Of a DNA stretch of 34,396 nucleotides, positions 5,797 through 30,494 are shown piece after piece. Each line of letters opens with the position of its first letter. The first letter of the stretch is position 1. A program made the translations under genes and the position numbers. Source of the DNA: Pseudanabaena sp. FACHB-2040 (GTDB lineage Bacteria; Cyanobacteriota; Cyanobacteriia; Phormidesmidales; Phormidesmidaceae); the NCBI RefSeq assembly GCF_014696715.1, contig NZ_JACJQO010000038.1, positions 1 to 34,396 on the forward strand. Reading direction: 5' to 3'. The notes below the pieces were generated by a model, which saw only the letters and a list, made by a program, of their open reading frames with translations, did not search any database and was not told the DNA's origin.

Positions 5797-8700
5797 CTAA
5801 CCAGCCCGGCCTTCTGCTCGGCCCAAGCGGAAGAAGTGTTCCATTCCACTTGAGAAGAGGCCATTATCTACTGCCACCGCTACATCAGAGTTGGCGCTTA
5901 AATAAGCGCCCTCATTAAATAGGGAGCTGGAAATGCGGCCTTCCTTCTGTCCAAAGCTGACGTAGTGCTGGTAGCCTGAAATGAAGCTATCAGCAGCAAC
6001 TGCGCTTGCAACATCCGGGTTTAGTCTCAAATAAAGTGCCTCTTCGTACAGCAGGCCAGCTGACTTACCCTCTTGAGCTCCCCATTCCAAGTAGTGTTCG
6101 AATCCGCTCGTAAAGGCTTTACTGTTAACCGCAGCCTGAACATCTGGATTATTTCTCAGATAGTCTCTTGGGTTGAACAGCTCACTGGCAATTCGGTTCT
6201 CTACATGACCGAACTGAAGATAGTGCATTAGCCCGCTGCTGAAAGTGCCGTTATTGACAGCAGCTTTGATGTCAGGATTGTTTTGTAAGTAGAAAGCTTC
6301 GTTGTAGTAGTTGCTAGGGCTGCGGCCTTCTTTTACTCCATAAAGTAGAAAGTGCTCGAAGCCATAGGCAAAAGTTCCTTGAGCTACGGCTTTGGCAATA
6401 TCAGGATTTGTGCTCAAGTAGTACGTCTCATCAAAGAAAGCTGACATCTTGAGGCCCCCGATTTCGAGAGTCAGGGGCAGGAGGGACCGTCCTTCAGAAG
6501 CTCCATGCTGGCTGTAATGTTGGAAGCCACTAGAAATTACTCCATTATTAACAGCAGCTTTAATATCAGGATTGGCGAGTAGGTAAAGCTCTTCATCAAA
6601 ATCTGGGGGAAGCTCCTCATCGAGAGCCTGGAACTGTACATACTGCTCAAAAGTAAAGACCGGAGAGCGAGGATGTATATTGGTGGCCGTAGGAACTTCG
6701 AAATTGGCAACCCTATATGTTTCACTAGTAGTTGGTTCTTCAGGAAAAAGGACATTCCCAGCTAAATCAGTAATGTCTTGATTATTTGCTAAGTTAAGAC
6801 CGACGGTGCCATTAAGGCTCGCGAGATTGCCACTAAAAACAGTGATGTCATAAGCTGCAGGATTAACCTGAGTAACGTTAGTGATAGTAGCCGTCGTTCC
6901 AGTCACAGCGAAGTCTTCAATACTGACATCCTGAACGTTCCTGTTGAAGAGAGCACGAAAAATCAAGCTGTCAGCAGCAGTAGTTTGGCCAATAGGAGTT
7001 TGCCGAGTGATGCTGGTTAAAGCTGGAGAAGTATCGTTGTCCTTCAAGTTGAGAATGAGGGAATTTGTACCAATTGTGTATACCCCGTTCTCGGTAACTG
7101 AGAGCGTAAGTGTTTCATTACCTTCTACAAGACCGTCATCAGTAGTACTGATAGTAACTCTGACTCTGTCTTGGCCATCTGGAATCTTTACTCTAAGGTG
7201 ATTTCCGTTAAGTGTTCCTGTGTCAAAGTGGTAATCGTTAGGGCTGACTGTACCGTCTATAGTGATAAGGACATCTAAGTCACCCAAACTACCATTGCTA
7301 CGGAGTACAAAAAAGCTAGCACTGCCACCTTCAACAACAGTATCTAATGATCCAAATACTACGTAACTTGTACCAGCTGCACCTTTGCCATCAGGAGTGG
7401 CAAGCGCTACACCAACGATGAAGTCAGCTATGCCATCGCCGTTGATATCACCTGCACCGCTAACGGACATTTGTGAAGAATCAGAACTGTTAATGCCATT
7501 AATGAAAAAGCCATCACTGCCATTGAGCACAGACAAATCGATATAGCTCTTAAAGCCATTCTGACTACCAAAGACAACATAAGCCTGCCCAGCAGTACTG
7601 GGGGTATTACGTCCAACCCCTGGTGCACGAATTATGATGTCATCGATACCATCATTGTTGACATCACCCACAGCACTTATTGCGCGACCCGACTGAGCAA
7701 AACTACTTGTCCCGCCGATAACAAAACCATTTTTGCCGTTTAAGCTGGAAAGCTTGAAGGAATTGCTAAAGCCACTTCGGCTACCAAAAACAACGTAGCT
7801 CGTTCCGGCATCACTTCGACCATTTAGATCTGCGTTGGGTGCACTAATGATGAGATCATCAATACCGTCACCGTTGATATCACCTGCACTACTGACTGAG
7901 CTGCCTAAGCTGTCGTAACTTGAAGTAGCACGCTCAATAAAAAAGCCATTATTGCCGTCGAGAGTAGAAAGGTTGAAGCTACTTCCAAACGAACTCTTCG
8001 ACCCAAACACCACATACCCTGCACCCTTAAGGAAGATGCTACTACCATCGACACCTGGAGCACCAATGATTAGGTCACTGATACCATCGCCGTTGATATC
8101 ACCCGCACTACTGACTGCAGAACCAAAAAGATCTCCCAAAGTAGTTCCATTAATAGCAAACCCATTAGTGCCATCTAGTGTGGCAAGGTTTAGAGAACTA
8201 CCAAGCCCCCCCTTACGGCCAAAGATAATATAGCTTGCTCCCGTGCCGCTATTTGCTTGGCTTGCACCAACGATGAAATCATCAAGGCCATCCCCATTGA
8301 TGTCACCTGCTTTGTTAGCTGAGATTCTAAAGCGACTTGAGCCGTCTCCACCATTAATCAAAAACCCATTTGTACCATCTAGAGAGTTAAGATTGAGCTG
8401 ACTGCTAAAGTCTTTGTCGGACCCAAATACAACATACCCTCGACCAATGTGACGCCTACTACCATTATCAAAGTTAGATTGTTCATTAATGAAGATGTCG
8501 GCAAAACCATCCCCATTGATATCGCCGATTCCGATTGCAACCGATCCCGAGTACCCTGATCCTTTAGTACCATTAATAATAAAGCCATTACTGCCATTTA
8601 ATGATGAAGGATTAAAGGAACTGCCAAATCCTTCATCTGAGCCGAACACGACATAGCTTTGACCAGACCGATAGATATTACTAGGGCTAGCATTTGGGGC

Positions 8701-10758
8701 ACTAATAATAAGGTCGTCGATGCCGTCACCGTTGATATCTCCCGCGCCACTTACTGAAGTACCTAATCGATCTTCACTTTTGATGCCATTAATAGTAAAT
8801 CCGCTAATACTATCTAGATCACCAAGGTTAAGGCTATTGCTCAAAGCAGCTTGAAAGCCCAAGGTAATGCTAACTTTAGGTAGATCATTATCTTCGAAGA
8901 TAAATGTGCCACCTTTATCTTCAGAAATTAGATCATAAGCACTTGGATCACTTAGGGTTAGATTGAGAAACTCGGTAAGTTCGTCTTGAGTGTCATCAGT
9001 AGCTGTGACAATAACCTCTACACTCGTTTGTCCATGAGGAATAGTGGCTATCAGTTGAGTTCCGCTAACAGTCCCTGTGCTGAAGTTGTAGTCAGTAGTG
9101 CTAGCACTACCGCTTAGATCAAAAATGAATTGAAGATCACCATAGGTATCAGTCCCACGCGACAGAGTAAAGCGGCCCGTTTCTGCACCCTCAACTGCTT
9201 TTGTTGCGTTAGCTATAAAGGAAAGGGAAAGTGGTAGTCGTTTTTGCCCAAAAATCACATAACTGTCGCCGGGATAATTGCCTCCACTGGAGCTAGAACT
9301 TGGCGCACCAATAACAATATCGTCAACACCATCGCCGTTGATATCTCCCGCCGCGCTAACAGAGAAACCCGCTAAATCATACTGCTTAACACCTCTAATA
9401 AAAGCACCTTTATCAGCACTTAATTCAGAAAGATTGAAGCTAGAGCCGAAGTTGGTCCCTGAGCCGAAGATGATATAGCTCTCTCCTGCTTGAAACCTAC
9501 CTGCGACTCCACTTGCATGGGGTGCACCGATGATAATGTCATTAAAGCCATCACCATTAATATCCCCTGCGCCACTGACAGCAAAACCACTACGATCCCC
9601 GGAGTCGATTCCATTGAGGACAAAGCCGTTAGTGCCGTCTAGTAAGGCAAGGTTAAGGCTAGCACCAAAGCCATTACGAGAGCCAAAGACGACATAACTC
9701 TCGCCAGCGTTAAGCTTTCCTTGAGGGTCAGCATAGTAGGCACCGATAACTAGATCATCTATACCGTCACCGTTAAAATCTCCTACCGAACTGATAGAAA
9801 AACCTGCTTGGTCCCTACTATCAATGCCATGGATGGCAAAGCCGTTGGTGCCGTTTAACGTAGAAAGGTTTAACTGGGGTTCGGAGAAAGTATCAGACCC
9901 AAAGACAACATAGCTTACGCCAGCCCGATAAACGCCGTTGGGTGAATCACGATCAGCAGCAATAATCAGATCGTCGAAACCATCTCCATTGATATCTCCT
10001 GCCGAACTTACAGCATTTCCTGAGTAGCTCTTGCTCGTCACCCCGTTGATGACGAAGCCATTTTGGCCGTTTAAGTCAGCAAGTTTTAGGCTAGGGGCGA
10101 AGCCAGCTTTAGAGCCAAAAATGAGATAGCTCTCGCCACCAGCAGAAGTGCCGTTGGGATCACCACCATCAGCACCGATGATGAGATCATCAATGCCATC
10201 GCCGTTAAAATCTCCCGCTGATGTAACGGAGGTACCTGAGCGGTCGCTGAGATCTATGCCGTGAATGACGAATCCGTTATCACCATCTAGCGCGGCTAAA
10301 TTCAATCGGGGGCTAAACCCACTGCCGCGGCCAAACACCACATAGGTTCTCCCAGTCATAAAGTTGCCATTCAGACCCTCGGCATAGTACGACCCAATCA
10401 CTAGATCGTCAAAGCCATCTCCATTAAGGTCTCCTGCCCTGCCTACAGCTCTACCTGCACGATCTAGAGAATCAGGGCCAGAGATGACAAAGCCGTTGAT
10501 TCCATTCAGCAAGGTGAGATCGAAGTTCTTGCTAAAGCCAGCGCTAGAGCCAAAAATCACATAGCTCTCACCAGCTCGGTCCTTACCACTAGGATCGGCT
10601 TCAGGTGCGCCAATAATCAGGTCGGCAAAACCGTCGCCATTGATGTCTCCTGCTTCGCTGACTGATTTACCTAACCGGTCTCCGCTTTTGATACCGTTAA
10701 TAATGAAGCCGTTGCTGCCGTCTAAGCTAGCAAGGTTGAGGATAGAGCTCACGCCCAT
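5797..10758 (-). CDS. Giant FG-GAP / Calx-beta protein with C-terminal YLxxNPD repeats
   Basis: A 1653-residue protein, probably exported, although no Sec signal peptide is visible at the N terminus (MGVSSILNLASLDG). Seven FG-GAP repeats (about 65-70 residues each, with calcium-loop motifs of the type DINGDG and a closing SYVVFGS strand) fill about residues 1-490. They are followed by a Calx-beta domain (about 510-625), seven more FG-GAP repeats (about 630-1130), a second Calx-beta domain (about 1140-1240) and a bacterial Ig-like domain (about 1245-1345). Six repeats of about 45 residues of the form YLxxNPDxxxAV...SGxxHYxxxGxxEGR close the protein. FG-GAP heptads fold as integrin-alpha-type propellers. 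I infer a calcium-dependent surface or adhesion protein; the C-terminal repeats may act in secretion. The gene lies 200 bp downstream of the TIGR03032 gene. Confidence 0.85.
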   Translation of the reverse strand: MGVSSILNLASLDGSNGFIINGIKSGDRLGKSVSEAGDINGDGFADLIIGAPEADPSGKDRAGESYVIFGSSAGFSKNFDLTLLNGINGFVISGPDSLDRAGRAVGRAGDLNGDGFDDLVIGSYYAEGLNGNFMTGRTYVVFGRGSGFSPRLNLAALDGDNGFVIHGIDLSDRSGTSVTSAGDFNGDGIDDLIIGADGGDPNGTSAGGESYLIFGSKAGFAPSLKLADLNGQNGFVINGVTSKSYSGNAVSSAGDINGDGFDDLIIAADRDSPNGVYRAGVSYVVFGSDTFSEPQLNLSTLNGTNGFAIHGIDSRDQAGFSISSVGDFNGDGIDDLVIGAYYADPQGKLNAGESYVVFGSRNGFGASLNLALLDGTNGFVLNGIDSGDRSGFAVSGAGDINGDGFNDIIIGAPHASGVAGRFQAGESYIIFGSGTNFGSSFNLSELSADKGAFIRGVKQYDLAGFSVSAAGDINGDGVDDIVIGAPSSSSSGGNYPGDSYVIFGQKRLPLSLSFIANATKAVEGAETGRFTLSRGTDTYGDLQFIFDLSGSASTTDYNFSTGTVSGTQLIATIPHGQTSVEVIVTATDDTQDELTEFLNLTLSDPSAYDLISEDKGGTFIFEDNDLPKVSITLGFQAALSNSLNLGDLDSISGFTINGIKSEDRLGTSVSGAGDINGDGIDDLIISAPNASPSNIYRSGQSYVVFGSDEGFGSSFNPSSLNGSNGFIINGTKGSGYSGSVAIGIGDINGDGFADIFINEQSNFDNGSRRHIGRGYVVFGSDKDFSSQLNLNSLDGTNGFLINGGDGSSRFRISANKAGDINGDGLDDFIVGASQANSGTGASYIIFGRKGGLGSSLNLATLDGTNGFAINGTTLGDLFGSAVSSAGDINGDGISDLIIGAPGVDGSSIFLKGAGYVVFGSKSSFGSSFNLSTLDGNNGFFIERATSSYDSLGSSVSSAGDINGDGIDDLIISAPNADLNGRSDAGTSYVVFGSRSGFSNSFKLSSLNGKNGFVIGGTSSFAQSGRAISAVGDVNNDGIDDIIIRAPGVGRNTPSTAGQAYVVFGSQNGFKSYIDLSVLNGSDGFFINGINSSDSSQMSVSGAGDINGDGIADFIVGVALATPDGKGAAGTSYVVFGSLDTVVEGGSASFFVLRSNGSLGDLDVLITIDGTVSPNDYHFDTGTLNGNHLRVKIPDGQDRVRVTISTTDDGLVEGNETLTLSVTENGVYTIGTNSLILNLKDNDTSPALTSITRQTPIGQTTAADSLIFRALFNRNVQDVSIEDFAVTGTTATITNVTQVNPAAYDITVFSGNLASLNGTVGLNLANNQDITDLAGNVLFPEEPTTSETYRVANFEVPTATNIHPRSPVFTFEQYVQFQALDEELPPDFDEELYLLANPDIKAAVNNGVISSGFQHYSQHGASEGRSLLPLTLEIGGLKMSAFFDETYYLSTNPDIAKAVAQGTFAYGFEHFLLYGVKEGRSPSNYYNEAFYLQNNPDIKAAVNNGTFSSGLMHYLQFGHVENRIASELFNPRDYLRNNPDVQAAVNSKAFTSGFEHYLEWGAQEGKSAGLLYEEALYLRLNPDVASAVAADSFISGYQHYVSFGQKEGRISSSLFNEGAYLSANSDVAVAVDNGLFSSGMEHFFRLGRAEGRAG

Positions 10759-21583: not shown

Positions 21584-21621
21584 AGAGTTAATTTCTAGAG
21601 AGAAGCTAAAGCTGGAAAGAC
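21584..21621 (+). repeat. 38-bp imperfect direct repeat, right copy
   Basis: The right partner of 20162-20199, starting five bases after the stop codon of the glycosyltransferase gene and running toward the IS5-type fragment. Confidence 0.55.
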
Positions 21622-21650
21622 ATAGAAGCAAGGGTTTCTACACTAACACT

Positions 21651-21854
21651 ATTGATTGTCCAGCAGGTCATCCGCGCAAAGTCGATTTGCGTAAGATTCT
21701 CAACGCCATCTTTTATGTGCAGCGCAGTGGCTGCCAGTGGGAGATGCTGCCGCATGTCTTTCCACCTCACAGCCAGGACTTTTGGTTAGCTGAATCGTTA
21801 CCGACGCTTGGGTTTGCCTCACTCATTTTGATACGGCCAGATCTCACTCTATAG
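21651..21854 (+). pseudogene. IS5-family transposase N-terminal fragment
   Basis: One frame reads [19 protein letters not shown] then [16 protein letters not shown], the conserved N-terminal DUF4096-type segment of IS5-family transposases. About 35 residues later similarity is lost and a TAG closes the frame at 21852-21854; no start codon precedes it. The DDE catalytic part is absent. It is a fragment of under 70 codons, presumably what remains after deletion of most of the element. Confidence 0.7.
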
Positions 21855-21902: not shown

Positions 21903-22751
21903 TTAGCCAACAGCAGCGGCAGGCCGCTGGGATGCAGTGTCAAAAATTGGCACCAAGCTATACCCCTCTGGTGTCCACTGCCAAAGTTCTTTCAGCTCTT
22001 TTGACATGGGTTGCTGGCCTAACCCCAGACGGGCCAAAATAACGCGGATAATGACCTGGTTGAAGTGCCTGGGAAATCGATACTGCTCCTGGGCGTGATC
22101 CAGAAAAAAAGTTTTGTAGTAGGTCTTTAAACTACCTTCCAACTGGGAAATTTGCTCCAAAAAGGCCTTAACCTCCCCTAACCGATGCTGATGATTGGCT
22201 AACAGCAGTTCGGCCGCATTGTTGAAATGCATGCCCTCGTCTTTGACCAGATGGTGGCCGATTTTCTGAATATTTGACCCAAAATGTTGGTAATATTCGG
22301 CTAAATCTCGTCGGTAGGAGTAGACGGAGCCAATCTCATCAAACATCAACGTCACCAGCAGCGTAAATTCGTCTTGCAGGGTGATTTGCAGCGGATCAAA
22401 GTCATGAACCCGTTCTGAAAAGCAACGATCCATGTCAGCAAAACTTACCCCTGATAGACCGTGATAGGTGCGTCGCAGGGCTTCGTAGTGCTTCAGTTCG
22501 TCGGCCAGCCAAAGCCTCAGCATGGCTAGAAAGTCTACTGACATGTCTGCCTGGCGCGACATTACATAGTCGTACAATGCCTGGGAGTCTCCCTCCGAGT
22601 AGACATCTCGGCTGAGCAAACTGCAAAAGTTTTGCCAAACCCCATCGGGGGCATGGGCAAAATACTCTTCTGGTATGGAGTGATCAAGGGGGAGAACCTG
22701 ATCTAAAACCCAATGGTTTTGCCCCAGTTTAGGCCTGCATACCACCATCAT
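21903..22751 (-). CDS. Ferritin-like di-iron carboxylate protein, third gene of the YgiB/YgiC-type operon
   Basis: About 282 residues, starting at one of two tandem ATGs at 22751 and 22748 (a GAGG lies just upstream; a GTG at 22760 is also possible). Counted from that GTG, two E-x-x-H motifs are visible, E88-L-K-H91 and E175-G-M-H178, with a lone Glu in DEIGSVYSY (E142) between them, and E56 in a preceding segment. This spacing matches a four-helix ferritin-like di-iron site (Glu; ExxH; Glu; ExxH), as in di-iron oxygenases and desaturase-like proteins. The protein is soluble, and the substrate is unknown. It follows the ATP-grasp gene by about 40 bp on the same strand, so the two are probably co-transcribed. 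I do not recognise a named family. Confidence 0.65.
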   Translation of the reverse strand: MMVVCRPKLGQNHWVLDQVLPLDHSIPEEYFAHAPDGVWQNFCSLLSRDVYSEGDSQALYDYVMSRQADMSVDFLAMLRLWLADELKHYEALRRTYHGLSGVSFADMDRCFSERVHDFDPLQITLQDEFTLLVTLMFDEIGSVYSYRRDLAEYYQHFGSNIQKIGHHLVKDEGMHFNNAAELLLANHQHRLGEVKAFLEQISQLEGSLKTYYKTFFLDHAQEQYRFPRHFNQVIIRVILARLGLGQQPMSKELKELWQWTPEGYSLVPIFDTASQRPAAAVG

Positions 22752-22789
22752 TGACCTCACTCGTAAAAAGACTGCAGCCTGCCCTCGAC

Positions 22790-24136
22790 CTAAACACGGG
22801 CAATATAGAGCCCATCATCGGAGACAACATGGGGAATGATCAGGCAATGGCGGCCTGTAATGCGCGAGGTGTCTCCCCGCAGGATGATGCCCGCTGCCTC
22901 GCCGTTGATGACCCAGCTACCGACCATGTAGTGGTAGCCAAAGGCCTGGGGGAGTTCGATGTAGTCCTGAATGACAAACCCTTCTGAACCGTAGCCCAGG
23001 GTATCCCGTTTTTCCAGTTCACCGACTCCTGTTTCAATTGAGGTGCCCACCCCCTCTAGTCCCAGCATGGGCTTCTTGACGTGCATCTCCAACATCAGCT
23101 TCGTGGCCTCGGGGGAAATATCGCTATCGAAGTAGGTTGCTAACAAATAGGGGCGATAGTCAGAGGCTTTGAACTGGTCCCACATTAGGGCCATGGCCCC
23201 CTTATTAGAGAGCACCTGCTTCCAGAGGGGTTCGAGCACCTTTACGTCTCCGGCCTCTAGGCGACGAACCAGAACAGGCGTTGCTTGGGTGTTGGCCATG
23301 TCGTTTTGAATGTCAGACCAGTCGTAGATTTTCCACAGCACTGGAATGCGATCGTTAACGTGATCGACGAAGTAGCCTTCCTCATCTAGCCCCAGCCCCC
23401 GCTGCACCTCCTGACCCTGCTCATCTTGGAGTCCCCGCAGGTAGACAATTTGGGTGTAGATGCCGCTATCCACCTCGTCGTGGAGGATCTGGATTAGCTG
23501 CATGGCCATTTCTAAATCTTCCTCTAAGTTCTCATCGACCAGGAAGGAGATACCCGTTTGGCGCAGGTTATAGGCATCAGCAATGCGCCGCCATTGACCA
23601 GCCACCATATCCCAAAATTCGTTGAACTGGCTGGCGTCGTTGGGCAGGGGAAACGGGCCGGTCTGGTGGTTGCGCTTGTAGTCAACAAACCAGTTCCACT
23701 GATAAATGGTTTCTGCTCCCAGCAGCGGCGTCTCACCGTTGATCTCGATCAGCTTGATCTGGCCCGCTTCGGTGACTACCAGATCAAATCGGGTGCAGAG
23801 GGAGAGGTCCTCTACCGGGTCGGTGCGATCCCAGCTGGCCTTAATCGCTGGCCAGTAATCGGGACGAATTTTCAAGGTGGCTAAACGCCGATCTACATCC
23901 CCCGGCTGGTGGTCGGTAAAGAACCAGTCTAGAAACTCTACGCACATCTGCCACAGTTGCTCGGTGGCGGCTGCGATCGCAGTTTCTTCCTGCGTATCGA
24001 ACTGCAGGGCAAAGGGCTGGGGTAGGGCCTCTACCCAATACTGCTGCTTTGGATCGCTCAATACCTCAGTTTGGTATGCGTTGGCTTGGATGTGCTCCTG
24101 CCAGTTGCGACGCCGAACTACCTTGAAGGGTCTCAT
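22790..24136 (-). CDS. ygiC-like: Glutathionylspermidine-synthetase-like ATP-grasp ligase (YgiC type)
   Basis: 448 residues covering the GSP_synth (PF03738) ATP-grasp domain, without the amidase half of bifunctional GspSA. Motifs include R116-F-D118 and E131-I-N133-G-E-T-P (matching metal, ATP and glutathione-site residues of the family), the KKPMLGLEG loop, FVIQDYIELPQ and GSWVINGEAAGIILRGDTS near the C terminus. Family enzymes form an amide bond with ATP; the substrates of YgiC-type stand-alone proteins are not established. GGTGGAAAG before the ATG overlaps the end of the upstream lipoprotein gene, with only six bases between that stop and this start. This implies tight translational coupling. 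Confidence 0.85.
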   Translation of the reverse strand: MRPFKVVRRRNWQEHIQANAYQTEVLSDPKQQYWVEALPQPFALQFDTQEETAIAAATEQLWQMCVEFLDWFFTDHQPGDVDRRLATLKIRPDYWPAIKASWDRTDPVEDLSLCTRFDLVVTEAGQIKLIEINGETPLLGAETIYQWNWFVDYKRNHQTGPFPLPNDASQFNEFWDMVAGQWRRIADAYNLRQTGISFLVDENLEEDLEMAMQLIQILHDEVDSGIYTQIVYLRGLQDEQGQEVQRGLGLDEEGYFVDHVNDRIPVLWKIYDWSDIQNDMANTQATPVLVRRLEAGDVKVLEPLWKQVLSNKGAMALMWDQFKASDYRPYLLATYFDSDISPEATKLMLEMHVKKPMLGLEGVGTSIETGVGELEKRDTLGYGSEGFVIQDYIELPQAFGYHYMVGSWVINGEAAGIILRGDTSRITGRHCLIIPHVVSDDGLYIARV

Positions 24137-24142
24137 AAGCGA

Positions 24143-24913
24143 CTACTTTCCACCGGTACCCGTACTTTTGTAGGTTGAGCCAAATCCCTGGCTGCTGCGG
24201 CCGGTAATAGTGCCCCTAGCGGCGGTACCCGTGGGTCGTGTGGGCGCGGCTACGCTGGTGTGACGCGGCACCGACACCGGCCCTGAACCGGTTTGGGGAA
24301 CGGTGCGTCCGAAGGGGGTGACCACCTGCCCTGGCTGACTGCTGCGGAAGACGGTATGGGGTTGATAGACGCTGCGGTTGCTGCCGCCAAAATTGAGATA
24401 GACAAAGCTCGGGGAACCGTAGGGGTAGAGATAGGTGCCGCCATAAGCCGGCCGGTACCCATTGGTTTCAGCATTTGCGGGCGTGGTTTCGCACTGCACC
24501 CCCTCGGCCTGGCAGTCTGCCAGGCTGGAATATACCGGAGCGGTGCGATCGTGTTCCTGCAGGGCCGCCTGCATCTGGGGGCCGCAGTCTTCGACCTGCA
24601 TTACCGGGGGAGCGGGGGGCTGAGCCAGTTGATTCTGCTGGTGGGCCTCAAGTAAGACTTGATATTCTTGCTGCTGTTGGGTAATGTCGGCTTCGCATTG
24701 CTCTGTGGTTTCGTAAAACACCGCCGGAATCGCCTCGTCGGCGTTTTGGTCGGTGATAGTGCTGCTGCCGCTGTTCGATGTTTGGCTAGACGGTCCGCCA
24801 CACCCAGCCAGCAGAGAAGCAAACACCGCCGCCAGAACTAAATTGTTGTGGAGCTGCTGTCGATAGATAGAGCGGATTTGCAGAGGCTGGGAATTGGGTT
24901 TTGGATATGCCAT
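24143..24913 (-). CDS. ygiB-like: DUF1190 lipoprotein (YgiB type)
   Basis: 256 residues. After about 24 residues a hydrophobic stretch ends in the lipobox LLAGC (C38), so it should be a lipoprotein. The mature part contains the Cys-rich spacing of DUF1190 (TTEQCEAD, VEDCGPQM, SLADCQAEGVQCE) and a low-complexity Gly/Ser/Thr/Pro tail with aromatic patches (YLYPYGSPSFVYLNFG). In enterobacteria DUF1190 proteins are encoded next to YgiC-type ligases, as here, which supports both calls. It is the first gene of the operon; the promoter should lie in 24920-25080. Its role is unknown; an envelope protein acting with the ligase is the simplest inference. Confidence 0.8.
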   Translation of the reverse strand: MAYPKPNSQPLQIRSIYRQQLHNNLVLAAVFASLLAGCGGPSSQTSNSGSSTITDQNADEAIPAVFYETTEQCEADITQQQQEYQVLLEAHQQNQLAQPPAPPVMQVEDCGPQMQAALQEHDRTAPVYSSLADCQAEGVQCETTPANAETNGYRPAYGGTYLYPYGSPSFVYLNFGGSNRSVYQPHTVFRSSQPGQVVTPFGRTVPQTGSGPVSVPRHTSVAAPTRPTGTAARGTITGRSSQGFGSTYKSTGTGGK

Positions 24914-25993: not shown

Positions 25994-26694
25994 TCATCTC
26001 TTGCCGCTACTGAGAGCCGCGAGTGCCCACACATCAACTTGATTTTTCCTAAAAAAGAAGCTTTTCGTACTACGGTTCTGGGCTGCGCGGATCAGTAGTT
26101 CTGAGTTAGCTCGGCGTAGGTGGGCAAACAACTCGTAGATGTCCCCTTCACGGTCTGCTATCGTGATCACTCTCGTTGCTTTGGGCACTTGTTGCTGCAC
26201 TGCTTCCAGGCTCTCCAACCACCGATAGCTTTCCTTTTCCTCTATTCCTCGCCGTCGATGGGGGCGACAGCTTTGCATATCGCGAGTCCAGCTCTTCTGT
26301 GAAGCACTCCTAACGGCACTCCGGCATCGCTCACACATAGGGCTGTGTGCACTTTGATCCCTTTGCCTGATAGATCACTAATAGGCCCCAATCCACGTGT
26401 ACGGCGCAGTGTCGTGTACACCAGATCGCTCGTGTCTTGGCATACCAGGACCGTTTCGTGGCTACTCAAACGCATCACGGTACTGAGCTGATGGCCACTC
26501 AAAATGTCCTCGGCCTTGATGCGTCGATTGCTCCAGAACTGATACATGCCAGCTAACGCAGCCACATCTTGACTCGCTCCTGGCACGCTCTTATTCGGCT
26601 GCTCGTACAGCGCTTGCACCATTGCGATCAGCCGTTTCGTTAGCCTTGCATCTCCTAGCTCAGTTCCACTCAGCTCCTCTTCTACCCAGCTCAT
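25994..26694 (-). pseudogene. IS4-family (Tn5-like) transposase, frameshifted and 3'-truncated
   Basis: The first frame begins MSWVEEELSGTELGDARLTKRL, as in Tn5-like transposases, and carries the first acidic residue in VLVCQDTSDLVY. After GVPLGVLH the protein continues only in another frame (QKSWTRDMQ... then EKESYRWLESL), so there is a frameshift near 26296. The second Asp is present in VITIADREGDIYEL. The reading ends at 25994 before the YREK-type region with the catalytic Glu, so the 3' third is missing. Two independent lesions make it non-functional. Confidence 0.75.
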
Positions 26695-27657: not shown

Positions 27658-27957
27658 ATGGCAACCTGCTCAAGATGCAGTTCAACCCGCACGGTTAAGA
27701 ACGGCCGTATCCATACTGGAAAGCAACGGTTTCTGTGCCGCAACTGCGGATACCAGTTTGTCGAGCACCCCACCGATAAGCGAATCGACCAAGCGACTCG
27801 GGACTTGGTTGACCGTCTTCTGCTAGAACGTCTCTCAATGGCAGGAATTGCCCGAGCAGCGCAGGTCTCAGAGCAATGGCTCCAAGATTACGTTCACCTC
27901 AAAGCAGCCCAAACTCCGAGACAGGCTCAAGTACGCCCGAAAAAAAGGGGCCTTTAA
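27658..27957 (+). CDS. insA: IS1 InsA, copy 2 (intact)
   Basis: A 99-residue protein with two CxxC pairs (CSRCSSTRT and CRNCGYQF) forming a zinc ribbon, followed by the helix-turn-helix region (LLLERLSMAGIARAAQVSEQ). In IS1 this protein binds the inverted repeats and represses transposition; -1 slippage on the A7 run at 27940-27946 yields the InsAB' transposase. Unlike copy 1 there is no internal stop: CAG replaces the TAG. The start ATG follows the GGAG of CTACCGGAGAGCA by five or so bases. Confidence 0.8.
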   Translation: MATCSRCSSTRTVKNGRIHTGKQRFLCRNCGYQFVEHPTDKRIDQATRDLVDRLLLERLSMAGIARAAQVSEQWLQDYVHLKAAQTPRQAQVRPKKRGL

Positions 27958-28367
27958 GCGTGCAGTGTGATGAGCTGTGGTCTTTCGTTGATCGCAAGGG
28001 CAACAAGCAGTGGGTCTGGCTAGCAATGGATGCTCAAACCAGAGAGATTATTGGGGCCTATGTGGGAGACCGTAGCCGGAGAAGTGCCCAAAGGTTGTGG
28101 GACTCTCTGCCCAAGGTTTATCGGCAGTGTGCTGTTATCTACACCCATGACTGGAAGGCTTACCAAGGTGTGTTGCCCCAGAAGCGGCATCAGGTGGTGA
28201 GTAAGGACAGTGGCAAAACGAGCTACATAGAGCGATTCAACAACACCTTGCGGCAGCGGGTTTCACGCTTTGTGAGGCGCAGCCTTGCCTTCTCGAGAAG
28301 CCTACGCAACCATATTGGCTTGCTGTGGAATTTCATCCACTACTACAATGCATCATTACCTATCTAG
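27876..28367 (+). CDS. insB: IS1 InsB catalytic part, copy 2, with Asp-to-His change
   Basis: The catalytic part of InsAB', normally reached by frameshifting; the nominal ATG at 27876 overlaps insA. The DELWSFVDRK and SYIERFNN motifs are intact, but the middle acidic motif reads YTHDW where copy 1 has YTDDW and the E. coli IS1 protein has YTDGW. The conserved Asp has thus become His by a single GAT-to-CAT change. This should weaken or abolish strand transfer unless the adjacent Asp substitutes. The frame is otherwise complete to the stop inside the right inverted repeat. Confidence 0.75.
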   Translation: MAPRLRSPQSSPNSETGSSTPEKKGPLSVQCDELWSFVDRKGNKQWVWLAMDAQTREIIGAYVGDRSRRSAQRLWDSLPKVYRQCAVIYTHDWKAYQGVLPQKRHQVVSKDSGKTSYIERFNNTLRQRVSRFVRRSLAFSRSLRNHIGLLWNFIHYYNASLPI

Positions 28368-29426: not shown

Positions 29427-30323
29427 TTACTGGATGCGCTGAATCGAGCTGATGTTGTCTTGCAAGCCTAGACCGCTCAGGTCGCTGTAGCTGCCGGTGC
29501 CTAGGGTACGGCAGTTGCCTCGGTAGCCGACGTCTGAACACAGTTGCCAGGTGCCGCTTTGAATGCGCACCGAGGAGATCTGATCGTTGAGCCCCCGAGG
29601 GATCAGGTCGTGGATCGAGTCAGAGACCGTGATGCTGCTACCACCGTAGTTAACGTCGAGGTACACCGTGATCAAGCTACCGCTAGACCCACTGCTGCCC
29701 GAGCTATCACTGCTGACTAGCTGCATTGAGCTGATGGTGTCTTGCAGCCCCAGGGCGCTGAGGTTGCTGTAGCTGCCGGGGCCTAAGGTTTGGCACCTGC
29801 CCCGGTAGTTTACGTCGGCGCACAGCTGCCAGTTGCCACCATCGATTTGAATCGACGAAATGGTGTCACTGAGCCCGCGGGGGATGAGATTGTTAATGGA
29901 AGTGGTAAAGACGGCATTGTTACCGCTATAGCCAGGGTCTGAATAGACGGTAATGCGGGGGCTAGTGCCGCCGCCGACCGACGGCGTAGTGGTGGTTTCG
30001 GGCTGAATGGAGCTAATGGCATTGGCTAGCCCAAAGGAACCCAACGACGAGTAGTTGCCGGGGCTAAAGGTTTTGCAGTTGCCTCGGGAGCGAAAGTCAG
30101 AGCAGACTTGCCAGGTGCCCGAGACCACAACCATTGATTCGGCGCGATCGTTAAAGCCCTGGTTGTTTAAGTCACGCACCCCAGAGGAAAACGATCGCTG
30201 TTCACCGCTAAAGTCAGGCCCGTCAAATAGAATAATTTGGGTCGTTTGGGCGATCGCGCCGGGCTGAGCCAATAGGGCACCCAGTATGCCAACCACTATC
30301 CACAGCCAAAATGTTTTTTTCAT
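29427..30323 (-). CDS. Secreted protein with three beta/gamma-crystallin domains
   Basis: 298 residues from the ATG at 30323. A signal peptide is clear (MKKTFWLWIVVGILGALLAQ, cleavage likely after PGAIA). Three double-Greek-key domains follow, at about residues 28-107, 122-200 and 212-298, separated by Ser/Gly/Thr-rich linkers. Each has the pattern FxDxxYxGxxxxx...L.DxISSI. Calcium-binding (N/D)(N/D)xx(S/T)S motifs are seen best as NDQISS, with the variants SDTISS, QDTISS and QDNISS. Paired Cys in each domain (WQLCxDxxYRGxCxTL) suggest disulfides outside the cytoplasm. Its role is unknown; calcium-stabilised envelope proteins of this kind are known in bacteria. The frame is open upstream into a cupin remnant. 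Confidence 0.82.
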   Translation of the reverse strand: MKKTFWLWIVVGILGALLAQPGAIAQTTQIILFDGPDFSGEQRSFSSGVRDLNNQGFNDRAESMVVVSGTWQVCSDFRSRGNCKTFSPGNYSSLGSFGLANAISSIQPETTTTPSVGGGTSPRITVYSDPGYSGNNAVFTTSINNLIPRGLSDTISSIQIDGGNWQLCADVNYRGRCQTLGPGSYSNLSALGLQDTISSMQLVSSDSSGSSGSSGSLITVYLDVNYGGSSITVSDSIHDLIPRGLNDQISSVRIQSGTWQLCSDVGYRGNCRTLGTGSYSDLSGLGLQDNISSIQRIQ

Positions 30324-30338
30324 ACTTATATTTATGAG

Positions 30339-30494
30339 CAAGTATGGAATCGAAGTTCTGCCAACAGGCAAGACCGCATGCGCCAAACTGTAACGCAAGT
30401 TGATGTCTTGTTTGTCAGGATGAAGCAGTTCGCGCAGAACAGTTCCATCTCCAGCGATAATTTCTTCACAGTCGTTTAGTTTTTGGATCAGCAT
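30339..30494 (-). pseudogene. N-terminal scrap of a cupin gene fused in frame to the crystallin gene
   Basis: Starting at the ATG at 30494 the reading begins MLIQKLNDCEEIIAGDGTVL, then LHPDKQDINLRYSLAHAVLPVG, the front of a known cyanobacterial cupin protein. About 52 residues later it continues in frame straight into the signal peptide of the crystallin protein, so the rest of the cupin (including the His-rich motif) has been deleted. A hybrid protein could be made from this start, but the signal peptide would then be internal. Confidence 0.6.

Follow-up and report, generated by a model that had tools for sequence, protein, structure and literature searches.

A conserved cyanobacterial gene unit of a DUF1190 lipoprotein, a YgiC-type ligase and an unnamed predicted di-metal oxidase, with the lipoprotein tail as candidate substrate

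What does a stand-alone glutathionylspermidine-synthetase-like ligase act on, and what would a ferritin-like protein do beside it? The question is raised by a block of three same-strand genes in a stretch of 34,396 nucleotides from Pseudanabaena sp. FACHB-2040 (contig NZ_JACJQO010000038.1; the whole stretch is called the window, and its host genome is 6.28 Mb). On the minus strand, a DUF1190 lipoprotein of the YgiB/YjfM kind is followed by a GSP_synth ATP-grasp ligase and then by a third protein, which we named DI. A sequence-only reading had described the block as a YgiB/YgiC-type pair extended by a di-iron-type protein. Homology, adjacency and recurrence support this description, and the window pair appears to be a member of that known type with a ferritin-like, predicted di-metal protein added. 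We observed that the lipoprotein, the ligase and DI are a real three-component unit, with a linkage far beyond chance. We give a probability of about 0.5 to the view that the three genes form a protein-modification cassette, in which the lipoprotein tail would be the substrate, the ligase would add an amine and DI would oxidise the tail end.

The lipoprotein (24143..24913, minus strand like every feature of the block) has 256 amino acids. It matches PF06693 at 5.3e-07, with 30.5 bits against a Pfam gathering cut-off of 22, and the lipobox LLAGC previously read from the letters is there, with its Cys at position 38. A spacer of 6 bases (24137..24142), as had been noted, separates it from the ligase (22790..24136), a protein of 448 amino acids that matches the entire PF03738 profile (7.6e-61 over 1-371/371) and does stand alone. 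A second spacer of 38 bases (22752..22789), earlier put at about 40, leads to DI (21903..22751). This protein of 282 amino acids has no named family, and from its motif and model it is a ferritin-like, predicted di-metal carboxylate oxidase. The loci nearest to the window block are labelled Leptolyngbya or Nodosilinea.

The recurrence of the block was examined in 388 genomes of the class. The DI profile matched in 31/388 genomes, which belong to 17/159 genera and seven families. GSP_synth was present in 49/388 genomes, and 30 of the 31 DI genomes have it; the co-occurrence of DI and ligase has a value of 1e-30, calculated with phylogeny ignored. Together with L007, L009 and L012 the total comes to 34 DI genomes, five further hits having been counted already. 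We observed that in 32 of the 34 DI lies directly behind the ligase (or its remnant) on the same strand, and that in 31 the lipoprotein also lies in front of the ligase. There were three exceptions. G182 has a remote form of DI, and no ligase is among the open reading frames (ORFs) listed beside it. In Limnofasciculus (L012) an N-terminally cut DI sits unlinked on a 4.7-kb contig, and in L091 (genome G221) a truncated ligase adjoins DI and the lipoprotein is missing. All three genes are in pieces in L095. Conserved linkage beyond close relatives had been set beforehand as the test of the unit, and the block does recur in seven cyanobacterial families.

No further gene family recurs around the block. 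Among 23 neighbourhood loci, which had flanks of unequal length and in which ORFs in other frames of the three genes were disregarded, none beyond these genes was found in more than 3. With no additional recurring neighbour, a larger operon was rejected. A yjf/PspA-type operon was also rejected, as PspA, DUF2170, DUF350 and DUF2491 were not recurrent in the 23 loci. None of the three block proteins had a match in PADLOC, and a defence system was rejected on this ground. A separate observation concerns locus L085 (330-6677), where a second, partly decayed cassette lies behind the first: its ligase is in pieces, its lipoprotein frame is short, DI is open and the tail still ends GGK.

The nearest solved relatives of the window ligase are E. 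coli YgiC and YjfC. The ligase profile matched YgiC (7uk8) at 2.4e-50 over 1-438 and YjfC at 5.9e-48. Both carry the RefSeq product name peptide-spermidine ligase, and the same naming is used in a paper title cited in the available portion of PMC12568646. The earlier statement that the substrate of such ligases is not known in general is thus outdated. The window ligase aligns only to the synthetase part (residues 268-615) of the structure 2io7 of bifunctional glutathionylspermidine (Gsp) synthetase/amidase, and it matches positions 248-616/619 of the bifunctional Gsp NCBIfam model. At 448 amino acids and with no Pfam amidase match, it was rejected as a bifunctional enzyme of this kind.

We then looked at the lipoprotein, whose end reads GRSSQGFGSTYKSTGTGGK-COOH. 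Its conserved C-terminal tail, RGTITGRSSQGFGSTYKSTGTGGK-COOH (24146..24217), is the proposed recognition site and substrate of the ligase, and the terminal Lys codon lies at 24146-24148. Residues 236-256 showed a mean pairwise identity of 72.5% in 18 members, against 39.5% for residues 40-235. Four Cys (73, 110, 134 and 141) are invariant in the 18 aligned members. The lipoprotein had no PDB match at E 0.1 and no plasmid match by tblastn at E 0.01. An equivalent tail with RGGFG-like motifs was seen in E. coli YgiB and YjfM, and in DUF1190 proteins of Rhizobium, Sulfitobacter, Asticcacaulis and Vibrio; four of these six tails end Gly-Gly, and the others end Cys-Gly and Gly-Ser. Since a C-terminal tail is common to most partners of these ligases, the lipoprotein itself is, judging from the sequences, the most likely ligase substrate.

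How common such tails are was assessed with a simple rule: the last 45 residues must contain [GS][FYW][GS], and Gly+Ser must make up at least 40% of the last 20. The rule was fixed after inspection of the first loci and then tested on 18 loci fetched later, of which 16 satisfied it; many of the 18 are kin of the loci inspected first, and L164 and L165 are DI cassettes. Beside stand-alone ligases without DI, a tailed neighbour, usually upstream, was found in 34 of 38 cases. The ligase loci outside cyanobacteria were hand-chosen (12/151 plasmid records and three E. coli loci), and the gene for the bifunctional enzyme, gss, served as a contrast locus outside the 38. Three loci with the ligase in pieces (L161, L163, L171) were counted as positive. 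The four misses were an Azospirillum locus without a tailed neighbour (L121), a locus with the same kind of tail but Met in place of the aromatic residue (L154), and two ligase fragments (L099, L166). The arrangement varied a little: in L118 the tail protein and the ligase are separated by another gene, and the tailed gene is downstream in L119, L168 and L170. The loci contain 1,499 distinct ORFs with 100 or more codons; 57 satisfied the rule, and all but 6 of these were ligase partners, the comparison being with about 1,450 other ORFs that include frames which are probably not genes.

The tail is not confined to annotated DUF1190 proteins. Ligases without such a neighbour also adjoin a tailed lipoprotein or anchored protein, as in Bacillus (L122), Acinetobacter (L123) and many cyanobacteria. 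When ten of these partners were scanned, nine had no DUF1190 match at E 0.01 and the one in L163 just passed the cut-off, an absent Pfam match being no proof that two partners are unrelated. Neither side of E. coli gss, the product of which uses free glutathione, has a neighbour that satisfies the rule. As a side observation, in five cyanobacterial loci (L100, L101, L102, L154, L155) a divergent GSP_synth is adjacent to partners of ~390-510 residues, which are larger than DUF1190 proteins and have the same kind of tail; in L155 two of these frames follow one another. Read most simply, these sequence comparisons mean that the C-terminus of the protein next door is recognised by the ligase and is most likely also its site of action.

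The last residue distinguishes the tails found with DI. We observed that 32 of 32 readable tails of DI cassettes, from 31 genomes, end Gly-Lys, whereas a terminal Lys was absent from all 34 tails beside ligases without DI. The terminal Lys is encoded by AAA in 21 cases and by AAG in 11, and three different stop codons follow it. Since both Lys codons and all three stop codons are in use, it is the terminal residue and not the DNA that is conserved, and by its coding pattern the Lys is under selection. Even L093, which fails the tail rule by composition, ends GAGGK.

The third protein had been described as having two ExxH motifs and an intervening Glu, and this was borne out. Numbered from the ATG at 22751, its pattern is E53-x31-E85xxH88 ... 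E139-x32-E172xxH175; the earlier numbering (E56, E88, H91, E142, E175, H178) counts from a GTG at 22760. The codons of these predicted metal ligands lie at 22593..22595 (E53), 22488..22499 (E85xxH88), 22335..22337 (E139) and 22227..22238 (E172xxH175). Across 20 cyanobacterial members, the window protein among them and with identity down to 42%, all six are invariant, and they are kept in three Pseudomonas homologues at 23-28% identity. The Asp preceding three of the Glu (D84, D138, D171) is likewise invariant across these 23 sequences; a partial Bradyrhizobium homologue was excluded from the ligand alignment.

The best of five DI models had a mean pLDDT (predicted local distance difference test) of 77.7 and a pTM (predicted template-modelling score) of 0.80, and the other four had pLDDT values from 69.7 to 46.9. 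The residues had been expected to come together around one metal site in a predicted fold. The model goes part of the way: it is all helical, and its ligands fall on four separate predicted helices (53-65, 72-100, 128-152 and 159-186). Foldseek with this model gave nothing at or below 1e-3 (best E 3.7e-3); its first 50 rows include the phenylacetic-acid-degradation-like 4mud, acyl-ACP desaturases, the R2 subunit of ribonucleotide reductase (RNR R2), VlmB, R2lox and aldehyde-deformylating oxygenase. VIA-align lists 50 entries with Z 13.0-15.2, every one a desaturase, an RNR R2 or R2-like protein, or a VlmB-type enzyme; helical bundles may reach Z 13-14 by chance. Because of this chance level, the likeness of the model to di-metal oxidases is support and not proof.

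Named families were considered for DI. The window protein had no Pfam or NCBIfam match (Pfam up to E 1), and an acyl-ACP desaturase (PF03405, FA_desaturase_2) and a rubrerythrin (PF02915) were rejected on this ground. Weak matches did occur in other members, to FA_desaturase_2 in 3/20 (best E 0.0018) and to Rubrerythrin in 2/20 (best E 0.0055), and both point the same way as the fold comparison. Three Pseudomonas homologues were scanned as well, and two of them matched Rubrerythrin weakly. An aldehyde-deformylating oxygenase (PF11266) was rejected too, being absent among the families matched by the 20 members. Local profile-profile comparison with this enzyme gave a probability of 1.8%, although both ExxH pairs align. 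PF11266 itself was not found in the window's own genome and is present in 74/77 genomes searched. The DI profile found nothing convincing in the PDB, where the best entry was a designed di-iron protein (E 0.017), and a phage collection gave no DI match, so that a phage origin was rejected. From the ligand pattern and the model, DI is probably a ferritin-like di-metal oxidase of a family without a name.

Relatives of DI also occur outside the cassette. Homologues were found in 17 plasmid records, of which three were opened (two Pseudomonas, one Bradyrhizobium). A P. tremae plasmid (L114, 6293-9169) has a saccharopine-dehydrogenase-type protein (C-terminal domain) with two distant DI homologues in a row, then a small protein and a rubredoxin (PF00301, 1.2e-19). 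Di-iron enzymes commonly receive their electrons from rubredoxin, and by this analogy we count the pair near the rubredoxin gene as supporting a redox role of DI. In a P. aeruginosa plasmid (L115, 6441-9968), a DI homologue is accompanied by a saccharopine-dehydrogenase-type protein, an EamA transporter and a GNAT protein, beside Tn3-type transposases. The Bradyrhizobium homologue has no saccharopine-dehydrogenase-type neighbour. Saccharopine dehydrogenases act on a lysine derivative, and the family is broad. Since the saccharopine-dehydrogenase-like proteins beside the Pseudomonas homologues matched no NCBIfam model, a lysine substrate there is only a guess.

How might the three proteins work together? 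The DUF1190 lipoprotein would supply the substrate, its constrained C-terminal tail. The ligase would activate the terminal carboxylate of the tail with ATP and join to it an amine such as spermidine, a step modelled on YgiC and YjfC, which are reported to link spermidine to peptides. DI would then oxidise the tail end at its two-metal site, using O2 and electrons supplied by rubredoxin, ferredoxin or another general donor; its target would most likely be the invariant terminal Lys, and otherwise the attached amine. Both modifications would take place in the cytosol before export, after which the lipoprotein would be held at the membrane by its lipid or by an N-terminal helix. The conserved gene order, the ligand pattern, the ligase homology and the conserved, shared tail are observed; what we infer is that the tail is modified, which amine is added, and what DI acts on and by which reaction. 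That a bond of this kind exists in proteins is shown by the available text of PMC12270671, which describes spermidine attached to SUMO at its C-terminal Gly.

Alternatively, the product may be a small molecule: the ligase would form a conjugate of a polyamine with a peptide or amino acid, DI would hydroxylate or N-oxygenate it, and the lipoprotein would be only an envelope binding protein or sensor. The naming of YgiC and YjfC as peptide-spermidine ligases fits this, and both opened Pseudomonas DI loci, with their saccharopine-dehydrogenase-type proteins and in one case GNAT and EamA as well, look metabolic; PspA/DUF1190 operons are also linked to polyamine metabolism in the text available from PMC11237479. 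The sequence-only reading, which proposed an oxidation linked to peptide or amine ligation at the envelope, came close to this idea. Its three-component unit is supported; the likeliest substrate is now the lipoprotein tail, a feature that this reading had not described. A small molecule leaves unexplained why dissimilar ligase neighbours have a tail in common and little else, and why selection acts on the final residue of the lipoprotein. We regard it as unlikely. About as unlikely, and slightly the less probable of the two, is a tail that stays unmodified as a docking or sorting signal uniting lipoprotein and ligase; cell-wall peptides or glutathione would then be what the ligase works on. 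In favour of this are the Gly/Ser-rich, seemingly unstructured character of the tail, the ability of shared tails to serve as recognition sites, and the action of the bifunctional Gsp ligase on free glutathione. However, the constraint in DI-cassette tails peaks at the very carboxyl end (Gly-Lys in 32/32), the bond-forming site of this enzyme class, and the Gly at the end of glutathione has its counterpart in the Gly-Gly that closes E. coli YgiB and YjfM.

DI could also have a protective role, for the cell or for the ligase, as a rubrerythrin-like peroxidase or an iron-handling protein, and stand in the operon through co-regulation only. Its ferritin-like ligand pattern and the weak Rubrerythrin matches are compatible with such a role. 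We consider it quite improbable, as Foldseek and VIA-align put desaturases, RNR R2, R2lox and azoxy-synthase-type enzymes first, and a general stress protein would not be expected to be linked almost absolutely to one ligase group.

Several observations weigh against the protein-modification cassette itself. DI is frameshifted in four genomes (G275, G255, G078, G091), and because it is split beside an intact ligase and tail in three of them it may be dispensable, unless the frameshifts are sequencing errors. A simple lipobox pattern was found in only 10 of 18 lipoproteins, the rest having a looser one or an N-terminal helix. Since the ligase and DI have no export signal visible by eye and the lipoprotein has one, modification must precede export. 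DI relatives exist without ligase or lipoprotein (G182 and the Pseudomonas and Bradyrhizobium plasmids), so the ancestral DI substrate need not be the tail, and the tail might serve for docking or sorting. In a tree of 65 ligases, the 30 DI-linked ones fall together to one side of a branch supported at 100/100. DI and the terminal Lys may thus coincide through single ancestry, and their association counts as one evolutionary event.

Further features of the window lie outside the block. Next to it, an ORF at 21618-21851 (+) runs to a stop and is, we presume, the N-terminal part of an IS5-type transposase; with insertion sequence elements on the opposite side, it suggests a mobile-element-rich stretch. 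Transposase pieces lie at 25994-26694 (-), with Tnp_DNA_bind (PF14706, 2.7e-18) within 26242-26694, and an IS1-type pair (PF03811, PF03400) at 27658-28367 (+). The protein at 29427-30494 (-) has three beta/gamma-crystallin stretches (PF00030, 1.1e-50); to our knowledge such proteins are uncommon in cyanobacteria. A protein of 1653 residues at 5797-10758 (-) has 13 FG-GAP repeat stretches (PF01839, 4.3e-105).

The ligase/DUF1190 pair was already known. Ravi et al. 2024 (PMC11237479), in the text available, include DUF1190 and a Gsp-type ATP-grasp ligase in PspA-linked polyamine operons and call DUF1190 a metal-chelating lipoprotein. Our literature search found no description of DI, of the tail, or of such lysine or polyamine oxidation on an envelope protein, and the idea of the tail may predate us; the portions of PMC10948618 and PMC12096838 available have nothing on the third gene or the tail. 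What the analysis adds is a widespread variant of this pair with an unnamed, predicted di-metal enzyme, and a proposed natural substrate for the ligase class. The available texts assign an activity to YgiC and YjfC, but state neither a natural substrate nor a tested DUF1190 function. If the tail is the substrate, both could be addressed by a simple experiment in E. coli K-12. The cassette adds an unnamed family of predicted di-metal enzymes and suggests that lysine or a polyamine may be oxidised on an envelope protein. A broader idea, which we hold only tentatively and think rather doubtful, is that stand-alone GSP_synth ligases throughout bacteria, YgiC and YjfC included, modify the C-termini of tailed lipoproteins next door (DUF1190 and other families), which would be their dedicated substrates, and that one cyanobacterial group added a di-iron enzyme oxidising a terminal Lys that evolved for it, which would give an amidated, oxidised C-terminal Lys. 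If true, this would add a post-translational modification and a di-metal oxidase family that are both new.

When we compared the block with known systems, the closest were E. coli ygiB-ygiC and yjfM-yjfC, which share the lipoprotein-then-ligase order, short spacing and full-length ligase homology. The YgiB and YjfM tails have an aromatic-Gly motif like the cyanobacterial one and end Gly-Gly, whereas the cyanobacterial set has DI as third gene, a tail ending Gly-Lys, and none of the PspA, DUF350, DUF2170 and DUF2491 genes found beside yjfM-yjfC. The window ligase is also longer (448 residues against 386 for YgiC and 387 for YjfC, by coding-sequence length). Gsp synthetase (E. coli gss) and trypanothione synthetase have the ATP-grasp ligase domain in common with it; unlike the stand-alone ligases, gss has no tailed neighbour on either side. 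Acyl-ACP desaturases, RNR R2, R2lox and VlmB carry the E..ExxH..E..ExxH ligand pattern, as DI does. In VIA-align, the DI model matched the desaturase 2uw1 at Z 15.2 (237 aligned residues, root-mean-square deviation 4.2) and the azoxy synthase VlmB (8wvr) at Z 13.9 (233 aligned, 4.4). These enzymes differ from DI in having only about 10-12% identity to it, and their family models match its members weakly at most. The PspA-linked polyamine operons, in the available text of PMC11237479, come with no di-iron third gene and no C-terminal tail. The conjugation of spermidine to SUMO and ubiquitin likewise places an amine on the carboxylate of a protein's C-terminal Gly and, according to the available text of PMC12270671, is carried out by eukaryotic E1/E2 enzymes and not by an ATP-grasp ligase.

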